From Parabacteroides sp. (lineage in GTDB: Bacteria; Bacteroidota; Bacteroidia; Bacteroidales; Tannerellaceae), in the NCBI GenBank assembly GCA_022775005.1, contig JALFJR010000047.1, positions 20,325 to 84,324 on the forward strand: a stretch of DNA of 64,000 bases. The letters are read 5' to 3'. Shown one piece after another: positions 16,412 to 20,799 of the stretch. Positions within the stretch are counted from its first letter, which is position 1. Each line of letters begins with the position of its first letter. The notes below the pieces were generated by a model, which worked only from the letters and a program-made list of their open reading frames with translations, made no database searches and was not told where the DNA came from. Position numbers and translations under genes: made by a program.

Positions 16412-16632
16412 GGCGGGAAACGGCATTTAGTAGCGCAGTTTTCCGAATGTTCCACGTGTAACATTTTGTGGAGCAGTGCCTGAAAAAGCCGCTAAACCCT
16501 TGATACTATGCTGCTAAAGCCGATTTTCACTGTTCAACGAAAAGTGTGCAACGAAATAGATACATAGCGCACACAATACCTTTTAGGTGAATTAATAAAT
16601 AGTTGATTATCAGGATTGAATCGTAGGTGGGA

Positions 16633-16890: not shown

Positions 16891-16975
16891 CCCTACCCCT
16901 TTTATTGAATGAAATGACGGGGCAATATTGGCAGGACAAAAGGGTCAAAAAATACCCCTTTTGCTCTACGGTGAC

Positions 16976-17007
16976 TGCTCAACGAATGTGAACCTTTTCG
17001 TTGAGCA
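16976..17007. other. Hairpin tgctcaacgaa-N10-ttcgttgagca upstream of the surface-protein gene
   Basis: 11-bp perfect stem; the 'tcaacgaaaag' part also occurs near 16533. Confidence 0.65.
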
Positions 17008-17108
17008 ATGACCAACCTGGAGGGTTTCCCATTTTCCCAATGTGATGAAGAAGAACAAGAACAACGTATTTAGTAATACATTTTTTATTAACATCTAAAT
17101 TATTTATT

Positions 17109-20100
17109 ATGAACAAAAAGTTCTTTACTTTGGCAGCCGGCTTGTTGCTGACATCTGCGTTTACCGCAAATGCTGCAAGCGTAAGCTTGGCGAATTCTAA
17201 GAAAGGGCAGTATGTCGAGATCAAGGTAGGCACAAATGCCTTACAGATCAAGAGCAACAATGAGCTGGAAAAAGCAGCTGTTGCTGATGTGACTACTGCT
17301 AAGACGTTGGAAGCTGCTTTTGATCAGCAGAGGCAGATCGCTTCTCTGAAGTATGATACCAACTCTGGAACACCTATCTACCAGTTCGTAAACAAAGGTA
17401 CAGGTCAGTACTTGGCAATCAATTTGAAAACCAATAACAAGGGTGCTTCTACTTCCGTTGCAAAAATCAATGCAGCAGGTAACAAGGATTGGTGTGTAGA
17501 TGCTGCTGGTCACCTTTATGTTTTCCAGAATGACTCAACTTACACATTGGACAGCAATTTAAAGTTGGTTGCAAAGAAAGGTAATCAAGTTCCTTCAACT
17601 GCAGAAACTTTTACAATTGCGCAACGTGATGGTGCTGTCGACTTGAATGCAGCTATTTTGAATGCATTGATGGGTAAGGCTGGTAAGCTCTATTTCAATG
17701 GTGAGGATGTAACGGATGGTGAGAAAAATCTGATCGCTGATCATACGTGGAAGGCTTATCAGGAGGCTACAAATACATCATTGGGTATGGTGTTGGCTGC
17801 TCAGGATAAGGACAGCACGGATATCAAGAACCCGTATGTATTGGTTGTGGATACGGTTTTCTACAAGGGTCAAAATACCTATCATTCTTTGAAGTTGGAT
17901 ACTTTGGCATTGACTCCTGCTCAGGTTAAGAGCTTGAAGAAGAATGAGTGGGCTTACACAGCGAATACTTACAACACCGCTAAGCCTGCGAAGTTTGCTC
18001 ACCAAGCAAAAGCTGCTCTTTGGAATGGTACCTATACATTAGGTAACGACTCTATTGCGTTGGCAGTGGTAGGTGAGCCAAAGGTTTCTGCTATGGTTTC
18101 TGCTATTACTAATGGTACTTATAACTTGGGACAAGCAGAGGGTGCGTTAACAGCTGATATTAGCGTTGTTTGGGCTAACTATCCGAATTTTGGAACTGTA
18201 ACCACGAATTTTGAATCTGCTGCTGCCTCTGATGCTAAAACAGCTGTTAGTTATTTGCAAGCTGCTTTGACTGCTTGGGCAGGTATTGGATCTGCTGATG
18301 CCGAAACTGACTATTTGAAGTATACGATTGCTGCTTCTAAGTTCACTTCAGAAGGTGCTTTGGCTACTTCTTCTACGAATGTTTCCTATCAGGATCTTTT
18401 GAATGCTGCTAAGACAAAGTTGGATGCCGTAACCGATAAGAAATCAACCGATTATAAGGCATTGAAGGCTTATTATGACATGGCTGATGACTTGAAGACT
18501 TTGAAGCGTACGTATTCTGCAGCTAGTGTGAATTATTATCATTCTGAAGGTGCTGCTTACGCTGAAAGTGTTGAGTCGAATGCCGGTGTTGTAACTCTCG
18601 CTCAGTTGAGTAATACAAAGGTATTGACTGTTAAGGCGGAAATTACTTCAACAAATCACCAGGGCACTGTTATGCCGCTCATCCAGGCTGTTTCTACCAA
18701 GGGTGGTGACGCTGTGATCGACGGTAACGGTAAGGTTTACTTCATGCAGTTGGCTTCTGAGCCGGAATCAGACTTGCGTGCTACTGCTTTGAAGGGCAAA
18801 TATGTTGTAGCTGATCCGAATACAACGGTAATGTTCGACTTGGCTGACGAGGTAGATGCTGCTAACGTATATGCACAGTGGGGCTTCATCGAGGGCGCAA
18901 CCGGTTACTATCAGATCGTGAACCGCGCTACGGGTGATGCTGTTTCTCTACCGATCAACAAGACTACAAAGGCTGGTGTTTATGAGATCGATGGTGAGGA
19001 GTATCGCTTGATCGAGGTTGACCTCTCTAACGCAGACATCCGCGAGGAGAAGGGTGTGAAGTATGACTACACGGGCTTCTATTATGGTGGTCCGGCTGAT
19101 GGCGTTAGCCAGAGCTTCCAGATCACTCCGGCTTCTGCATTGCTTTCTAACGTAGCTGTTCAGTTCAACAAGTATAGCGTATTGGTATTGGGTAGCGCTG
19201 AGAACGCTCCGGTATGGTATCTCGAAGGTGGTGACAAGACCGAGATTTGGGGTGCTGAGATTCCGGGTCTGCCGCAGTTGAAGCGTGTAAAGGGTTACAA
19301 GATCTACACGAAGGATGCTGATGACAAGAAGTACTATGTATATGCTACAGCTACTGCTCCGAAGGTATATGCTATCACAAAGGCTGAGTATGCAGGAGAT
19401 GCTTCTGAGTTCAAGTTCCAGACACAGGCCGCTAACGCTTATCTGTTCGTGGATGGCGCAAATAAGGCTACTATCAACTTGAACCTGAATGTTCCGACGA
19501 TCGAGGTATCTAGTGTTACTAATGAGCGCAACGACTACTTCAGCTTCGCGAAGAGCGAGTATAGCGACTACCGCACATTGGTAGCTGAGGATGGCTTATT
19601 AGGCAACGCGAAGATCTACATGGAGAACGAGCCTAACCGCTACCTCTATGAGAACACGAAGAACATCGTGGCTAACAACGGTAACGGCATCGCTAAGGAT
19701 AGCTTGAACTTCTTGGGTATCTATAACACAGCCGCTTCTGTTCAGAACGCAGCACTCTATGTAGATACCGCTTATGTAGATCGCAAGGACAACACTCGTC
19801 CGCAGTATATGTTGGCAGTAGGCGTAACTGAGGTAGCTGCTACTGAGGGTCACGCTTGCACCGAGAGCGGCAAGCACTTCGACGCTGACGGCAAAGAGAC
19901 AACCGCTGACAAGTGCGTACACGCAACTCCGGGCACTGAGGGTTACAAGACTGGTCGTTACTTGGTAACATTGCAGGATTCTGTAGCTACTGGCTTCACG
20001 AAGCATCCGGCATTGTATGATGGCAACTATCGTTTGGCATTCGTTGAGGCTAAGCACATCAAGGATACGTTGGAGATCGCTAACTCTAAGTTCACTGTAG

Positions 20101-20528
20101 AGGATCACAGCGCAGATACGATCAAGATTGGTAAGGATCTGAAGAAGGCAACCTTTGCGTTGAAGATCGTTGATCAGGCAACGAAGAGCTTCGTGATGGA
20201 GACAGAGAATAAGACTTACGTTCGCATCTTGAACGGTGTTCCTGTCTTGACTTCTAACATCAACGACACAGCTGTATTCAACATCGAGGCTACTACTGAG
20301 GAGCCGACCGCTAACGAGGTAATCGCTGCTGAGGGTGTTCAGGTAATCGCTGGTAAGGGTACTGTAACTGTACAGGGTGCAGCTGGTAAGGTGATTACCG
20401 TAGCTAACATCTTGGGTCAGACGATCGCTAACCAGGTAGCTGCTTCCGACAACGTAACGATCGCTGCTCCGGCAGGTGTAGTTGTAGTTGCTGTTGAAGG
20501 CGAGGCTACGAAGGTAGTGGTTAAGTAA
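17109..20528 (+). CDS. Large secreted/surface protein, DUF6383-like C-terminus
   Basis: Signal peptide MNKKFFTLAAGLLLTSAFTANA; C-terminus VQVIAGKGTVTVQGAAGKVITVANILGQTIANQVAASDNVTIAAPAGVVVVAVEGEATKVVVK. Confidence 0.8.
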   Translation: MNKKFFTLAAGLLLTSAFTANAASVSLANSKKGQYVEIKVGTNALQIKSNNELEKAAVADVTTAKTLEAAFDQQRQIASLKYDTNSGTPIYQFVNKGTGQYLAINLKTNNKGASTSVAKINAAGNKDWCVDAAGHLYVFQNDSTYTLDSNLKLVAKKGNQVPSTAETFTIAQRDGAVDLNAAILNALMGKAGKLYFNGEDVTDGEKNLIADHTWKAYQEATNTSLGMVLAAQDKDSTDIKNPYVLVVDTVFYKGQNTYHSLKLDTLALTPAQVKSLKKNEWAYTANTYNTAKPAKFAHQAKAALWNGTYTLGNDSIALAVVGEPKVSAMVSAITNGTYNLGQAEGALTADISVVWANYPNFGTVTTNFESAAASDAKTAVSYLQAALTAWAGIGSADAETDYLKYTIAASKFTSEGALATSSTNVSYQDLLNAAKTKLDAVTDKKSTDYKALKAYYDMADDLKTLKRTYSAASVNYYHSEGAAYAESVESNAGVVTLAQLSNTKVLTVKAEITSTNHQGTVMPLIQAVSTKGGDAVIDGNGKVYFMQLASEPESDLRATALKGKYVVADPNTTVMFDLADEVDAANVYAQWGFIEGATGYYQIVNRATGDAVSLPINKTTKAGVYEIDGEEYRLIEVDLSNADIREEKGVKYDYTGFYYGGPADGVSQSFQITPASALLSNVAVQFNKYSVLVLGSAENAPVWYLEGGDKTEIWGAEIPGLPQLKRVKGYKIYTKDADDKKYYVYATATAPKVYAITKAEYAGDASEFKFQTQAANAYLFVDGANKATINLNLNVPTIEVSSVTNERNDYFSFAKSEYSDYRTLVAEDGLLGNAKIYMENEPNRYLYENTKNIVANNGNGIAKDSLNFLGIYNTAASVQNAALYVDTAYVDRKDNTRPQYMLAVGVTEVAATEGHACTESGKHFDADGKETTADKCVHATPGTEGYKTGRYLVTLQDSVATGFTKHPALYDGNYRLAFVEAKHIKDTLEIANSKFTVEDHSADTIKIGKDLKKATFALKIVDQATKSFVMETENKTYVRILNGVPVLTSNINDTAVFNIEATTEEPTANEVIAAEGVQVIAGKGTVTVQGAAGKVITVANILGQTIANQVAASDNVTIAAPAGVVVVAVEGEATKVVVK

Positions 20529-20558
20529 GTATATTCAGAAAAGACAGAATATAAAGTT

Positions 20559-20687
20559 GGGATCCCGTGCGGTGCATCACCAAGTAGCTTGCGAAAGTGA
20601 ACAGGCGGGTTCCTTAGTTAATAATAGTGTAAAATTGAAATAATAAAGTTCTACTTGCGGAGTAGCTCCGGGAGGAGCGAACAGCAA
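20559..20687 (+). ncRNA. Candidate tandem structured RNA: two AGUA-stem-GNRA-stem-GAACAG modules
   Basis: Module 1: AGTA-GCTT-GCGA-AAGT-GAA (20583-20601) inside GGGATCCCG/CGGGTTCCT. Module 2: AGTA-GCTCC-GGGA-GGAGC-GAA (20661-20681) inside TTGC/GCAA. Apical stems differ in sequence but keep pairing. Confidence 0.5.
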
Positions 20688-20698
20688 TCACAAAAAGG

Positions 20699-20733
20699 AA
20701 AGCCGTTAGGATCATGGTCTTAACGGCTTTTTC
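20699..20733 (+). terminator. Intrinsic terminator
   Basis: aaagccgtta...taacggctttttc. Confidence 0.85.
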
Positions 20734-20799
20734 TTGCTTTTTTGTCGTTCAAATCTCCCTAAAACGACATAGAATCGTGAAATGGTGTATCTTCGCGGT

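Follow-up and report, generated by a model that had tools for sequence, protein, structure and literature searches.

The 3'-untranslated region (3'-UTR) of a surface-protein gene in the analysed window, a 64,000-nucleotide stretch of DNA from Parabacteroides sp., carries an RNA element composed of two structured modules separated by a linker. The computations establish a conserved RNA structure, a fixed place between stop codon and terminator, a 5' box and a 3' element exclusive to the DUF6383 gene family, and above-chance complementarity between leader and linker. With its strong covariation, the element is a candidate for a new Rfam family. The interpretation that we favour, with a slightly better than even chance of being right, is that of a cis-acting bipartite 3'-UTR RNA, whose linker pairs with the leader, closes the DUF6383 mRNA and controls its translation and/or decay.

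DUF6383 is a type IX-like C-terminal domain of the surface protein, and the 1139-aa protein in the window also shows a weak RicinB_lectin_2 match near its N-terminus. A first-pass annotation had described two modules downstream of this gene that share the arrangement AGTA-stem-GNRA-stem-GAACAG. Both are present in the 3'-UTR, at 20583-20604 and 20661-20684, between the DUF6383 stop codon and the terminator, with the apical stems and GNRA caps as described; the pattern AGTAGCTN{4,12}GAACAG has 2 matches in the window and 0 in 100 shuffles. When 20525-20740 is folded without constraints, the minimum-energy structure (-61.1 kcal/mol, z = -4.0) contains the terminator and both modules. The coordinates of all features are collected in Table 1.

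Table 1. Features of the DUF6383 gene and its untranslated regions, in window coordinates.
Feature	Position	Strand	Basis or remark
DUF6383 surface-protein gene, owner of the 3'-UTR	17109..20528	+	1139 aa; PF19910 E=1.2e-26, residues 1066-1138
5'-UTR stretch complementary to inter-module linker (AAGAACAACGTATTTAGTAATACATTTTTTATTAACA)	17057..17093	+	ends 15 nt before ATG; RNAduplex
Module 1, three-way junction	20560..20613	+	minimum-energy fold, covariation
Module 1 P1	20560-20568/20605-20613	+	
Module 1 P2 (GGTG-CAT-CACC)	20571-20574/20578-20581; whole hairpin 20571-20581	+	
Module 1 P3	20587-20590/20595-20598; GCGA cap 20591-20594	+	
Module 1 junctions	J23 AAGTA 20582-20586; J31 GAACAG 20599-20604	+	
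Inter-module linker, ends in conserved AAAGTTC	20616..20653	+	cross-genome conservation; complementary to 5'-UTR
Module 2	20655..20687	+	pattern match, fold, covariation
Module 2 parts	P4 20655-20658/20684-20687; AGTA 20661-20664; P5 20665-20669/20674-20678; GGGA cap 20670-20673; GAAC 20679-20682	+	
Intrinsic terminator, predicted transcript end	20697..20732	+	16-pair stem, then T-run

Module 1 has the form of a three-way junction, its outer stem P1 enclosing first the hairpin P2 and then the AGTA/GNRA/GAAC arm P3. Module 2 is a simple stem-loop, interrupted by the same internal loop; a linker of ~40 nt connects the two modules. Each module has an outer stem of its own, as had been claimed, that of module 1 with one T-T mismatch. 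A terminator-like site, previously placed at 20699-20733, exists with the limits given in Table 1. The description of the modules as tandem copies is not supported, because their architectures differ (three-way junction and hairpin) and they do not repeat a single unit. The first-pass annotation had missed P2, the conserved linker between the modules and the 5'-UTR partner box.

The helices show compensatory covariation, as is expected of a structured cis-acting 3'-UTR RNA. In alignment A5, made with MAFFT without structure, double-sided changes occur at each of the 23 modelled pairs, with a covariation score of 0.599, compared with 0.269 (sd 0.016) for shuffled partners and ≤0.17 for slid partners. 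Among 93 non-redundant copies, in an alignment fitted to the model, the 15 strongest column pairs of an APC-corrected G-test are all helix pairs; a further covarying pair in the same model-fitted alignment, columns 130-137, supports a linker mini-hairpin, UAC-UAAA-GUA. The 13 module 1 sequences of this genome contain 97.6% paired cells, and both sides are changed in 7 of 13 pairs. G-U cells stand to A-C cells as 58:25, and as 16:0 within the genome; this excess suggests a sense-strand RNA. The structured RNA proposed in the first-pass annotation is borne out by the fold and by these compensatory changes, and the element is conserved by shape and not by sequence.

The residues that are unpaired and still invariant once covariation is removed are A.UA, GNRA, GAA and AAAGUUC, and the linker is conserved across genomes. 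The cap is GNRA in practically every copy and is frequently followed by one additional base. The AGUA opposite GAA beside a GNRA-capped stem resembles the bulged-G (loop E / sarcin-ricin) motif, which had been proposed in its classical form. The proposal is only partly supported: A.UA and GAA are kept across copies, and the G of AGUA is not fixed. In 112 module 1 copies, the position that follows the first A of A.UA is occupied by G in 84, by U in 21, by C in 5 and by A in 2. AGTA is absent from many module 2 copies. Given this variation, the strict bulged-G motif appears not to be required. A pseudoknot between the GAAC of J31 and the linker GUUC was rejected, because by inspection copies with GCUC still keep GAAC. 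At four loci (L054, L055, L056, L097), palindromes, e.g. GTAGAGACGNNCGGC..GCCGNNCGTCTCTAC and AAGGGCGGTTCGCGAACCGCCC, have been inserted into P2 of module 1 or just upstream of it; they resemble REP or MITE insertions that the RNA tolerates.

In every copy read, the element lies directly upstream of an intrinsic terminator, and P2 is hypervariable and takes large inserts. These features agree with a passive stabiliser, in which the GNRA-capped modules and the terminator would block 3'-to-5' exonucleases and keep the mRNAs of abundant surface proteins long-lived, with the linker as a mere spacer. Such a role is improbable, however, as it leaves the conserved linker, the junction nucleotides and the paired 5' box unexplained.

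The genome of the window has 15 matches to DUF6383, 13 strong and 2 weak. Module 1 is located right after the stop codon in all 13 strong genes, and module 2 and the terminator are also present in 12 of the 13; neither module was found at the 2 weak genes. A covariance model of module 1 has matches in 29 of 125 genomes of the family, distributed over four genera. The covariance-model search that the first-pass annotation had proposed has returned homologs with compensatory changes: the full model, built from 30 diverse copies, matches 31 of the 39 genomes of the genus, and the per-genome counts add up to 283 copies. Most carrier genomes hold from several to 24 copies. When 394 genomes sampled from the order were searched with the full model under strict filters, four matched, all within the family, and none was found outside it. 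A blastn search with the window copy returned nothing in plasmids or phages. One apparent copy (L003, C83) was rejected as a chance match of the short pattern, antisense to a coding region. On the minus strand of another locus (L064, G033), two full-model matches at 1357-1481 and 1149-1252 lie ~100 nt apart, the second being weak (E = 0.0057), which is possibly a double element.

Across seven near-closed genomes, 82 of 86 elements are found 19-137 nt past a strong DUF6383 gene on the same strand, and the element is present behind 82 of 98 strong DUF6383 genes. The exceptions among the 86 comprise a broken DUF6383 gene (L023), a divergent relative (L155) and a stand-alone locus common to G035 and G037. 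A fixed position between the stop codon and terminator of one gene family is what a structured cis-acting 3'-UTR RNA should occupy. The first-pass annotation had also considered an independent sRNA, and a trans-acting sRNA processed from the 3'-UTR would be consistent with the stand-alone copies, found at a single syntenic position in four species (G035, G036, G037, G038; L217, L219, L221, L222). This locus adjoins a gene for a small membrane protein (MKKINITTIALLVYL...), and no DUF6383 gene lies upstream of the copy. The stand-alone copy looks like a decaying relic, because in G038 it is losing pairs and the module 2 tetraloop, and in G052 and G057 it was undetected. An independent sRNA is therefore unlikely, and a trans-acting one processed from the 3'-UTR very unlikely, since nearly all copies adjoin a DUF6383 gene and the stand-alone locus looks decayed.

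Among paralogues in this genome, identity is 88% in the DUF6383 domain and 66% in the 3'-UTR element region, in contrast to the sequence before and after domain and 3'-UTR, which is at a background identity of 31-38%. The C-terminal domain and the 3'-UTR therefore form a single 3' cassette that is attached to proteins with nothing else in common. The same values fit a recombination cassette, in which domain and 3'-UTR would be kept alike by DNA-level homogenisation among paralogues, with the RNA shape as a side effect. This explanation is hardly credible, since compensatory changes accompany the divergence of the helices from genome to genome and G-U exceeds A-C, both of which require selection on the RNA.

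Immediately upstream of the ATG, the leaders of DUF6383 genes share a box, AACACTATTATTAATATTAA or a variant of it. In three genomes (G037, G043, G071; ~18 Mb), near-exact AACACTATTATTAATATTAA boxes (≤1 mismatch) precede an element-bearing gene in 39 of 39 cases, each sitting 1.5-6 kb upstream of the element on the same strand, for which the chance is <1% each. The box A[GT]TATTAAT also precedes 7 of 16 DUF6383 genes without a 3' element, according to a by-eye count.

The complementary leader stretch and the linker of the window pair with an RNAduplex energy of -16.8 kcal/mol (z ~ -2.5 to -2.8 against Markov shuffles), and only 2% of the linkers of other genomes pair as well with the window leader. 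For 48 genes in 21 genomes, z of the leader-linker pairing is negative in 48 of 48, the mean of genome means being -1.87; the accompanying P values overstate the support, because the genes are phylogenetically non-independent. The linker-only test was chosen after RNAduplex of leader and whole 3'-UTR had given a weak z (mean -0.67), the weakness arising because GC-rich helices absorb pairing. The own 5'-UTR of the 48 genes pairs with the linker better than its reverse complement, and DUF6383 leaders outpair the AT-rich 5'-UTRs of other genes in the linker test. GAAC is present in 24 of 48 leaders, compared with 5.9 expected, and GTTC in 1 of 48; the linker carries GUUC in 41 of the 48 genes. 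The complementarity resides in two separated boxes in antiparallel order, leader GAAC with linker GUUC and UAUUAAUA with UAUUAAUA, and the spacing is similar at both ends.

The main rival to closure of the mRNA is a shared protein site at both ends. According to this explanation, the element is an RNA-binding-protein platform, or the 5' and 3' boxes are two sites of one protein, which stabilises or silences all DUF6383 mRNAs, and the complementarity is incidental to a shared AU-rich motif. Leader and linker do share the same-sense motif UAUUAAUA(U/C)UAAA and, because the core UAUUAAUA is its own reverse complement, both ends may carry the same protein-binding site. The invariant unpaired A.UA, GNRA, GAA and AAAGUUC are also consistent with a platform, as is the absence of leader-linker covariation gene by gene or species by species, the own linker pairing no better than the linkers of other genomes (mean rank 0.49). 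Of the marks of icaR/hbs-type pairing, above-chance leader/3'-UTR complementarity is present, and compensatory leader/3'-UTR change across species was not observed. However, leader GAAC and linker GUUC are complementary, not identical, GTTC is depleted in leaders, and the leader outpairs its reverse complement; a candidate protein was not identified. We regard a protein-based explanation as rather unlikely.

In the preferred reading, closure of the mRNA by leader-linker pairing, two rigid GNRA-capped modules (three-way junction and hairpin) would flank a single-stranded AU-rich linker. The linker (UAUUAAUA...~30 nt...GUUC) would pair with the leader of the same mRNA (GAAC...~34 nt...UAUUAAUA), whose paired segment ends ~10-15 nt short of the AUG, close to the start codon without covering it. 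We infer that this pairing forms in cells, where the paired ends would yield a closed mRNA loop and permit control of translation and/or decay, and the whole DUF6383 family would be placed under one post-transcriptional rule. The effect may run in either direction: initiation could be blocked, as it is in icaR, or the message protected, as it is in hbs. More tentatively, at somewhat less than an even chance, the element could represent an "mRNA closure clamp" RNA family, in which a structured 3'-UTR platform presents an AU-rich capture strand flanked by two tertiary-folded modules. By pairing with a leader box specific to the family, the platform would circularise the mRNAs of the whole set of paralogous surface proteins, and sorting domain and RNA would move together as one 3' cassette.

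Pairing between 5'- and 3'-UTR is already known from single genes. In icaR, part of the 3'-UTR pairs with the leader of its own mRNA close to the start codon, as is predicted here. The icaR pairing is a short UCCCC anti-Shine-Dalgarno of one gene, in contrast to the present AU-rich linker, which has a conserved structured module on either side and recurs in as many as 24 genes of a genome. In B. subtilis hbs, a 14-nt 5'-3' UTR interaction protects from RNase Y (PMC7821165). The long-range pairing of mRNA ends is common to hbs and, as a prediction, to the DUF6383 mRNAs, but hbs is a single gene and a multi-gene structured RNA family is not described there (PMC7821165).

Neither the window nor 18 diverse relatives gave a match over the element in cmscan with Rfam 15 at the gathering threshold, and sub-threshold matches with E<1 near the element fall only on the terminator. 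The model of the small SRP RNA (RF00169) is not matched by the element, and no tRNA or tmRNA is present at it; the Rfam check recommended in the first-pass annotation returned no known family. Bacteroidales-1 RNA and other Rfam motifs of Bacteroidales are lineage-restricted structured RNAs found by comparative genomics. The present element shares their lineage restriction and differs in matching no Rfam family. A comparable kind of discovery is the set of 3161 candidate RNAs from human microbiomes described in the main text of Fremin and Bhatt 2021 (PMC8040213); that main text contains no DUF6383 or 3'-UTR surface-protein RNA and no "Parabacteroides", while the supplementary tables might list the element as an unnamed candidate. 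Neither in Rfam nor in the literature searched was a counterpart found to such a 3'-UTR RNA, which covaries, extends over a lineage and many genes, and is accompanied by a leader box exclusive to the gene family. Conserved structured RNAs in bacterial 3'-UTRs have rarely been described, and here one covarying RNA, together with a leader box, marks nearly all members of a surface-protein family. Closed-loop mRNAs as a means of co-regulating a bacterial surface repertoire are thereby made directly testable.

Some further observations concern the untranslated and promoter regions of DUF6383 genes. Orthologous DUF6383 genes without module 1 in G049, G048 and G046 (L347-L349 with L351-L353) keep a module 2-like GNRA hairpin and carry a 13-nt leader (ATTGATTTATTTA)/3'-UTR (TAAATAAATCGAT) complement, exact in G049 and near-identical in G048 and G046. 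About 100-150 nt upstream of the DUF6383 ATG (L255-L294), the promoter region contains a conserved inverted repeat, AATGACTAGAAAAAAGGAACGTTTTAGCTAGTCATTT in G043/G071 or AAAACGCAAGATCTAAACGATCGTTTAGACTAGTCGTTTT in G037, which may act as an operator or recombinase site or form a 5' hairpin. Sites resembling TTTCGTTGAGCAGT recur, in part as inverted pairs, upstream of the surface-protein gene in the window (16527-16544, 16970-17013) and also near other DUF6383 genes (G000 C9, C42 and C105), and are possible invertible-promoter sites.
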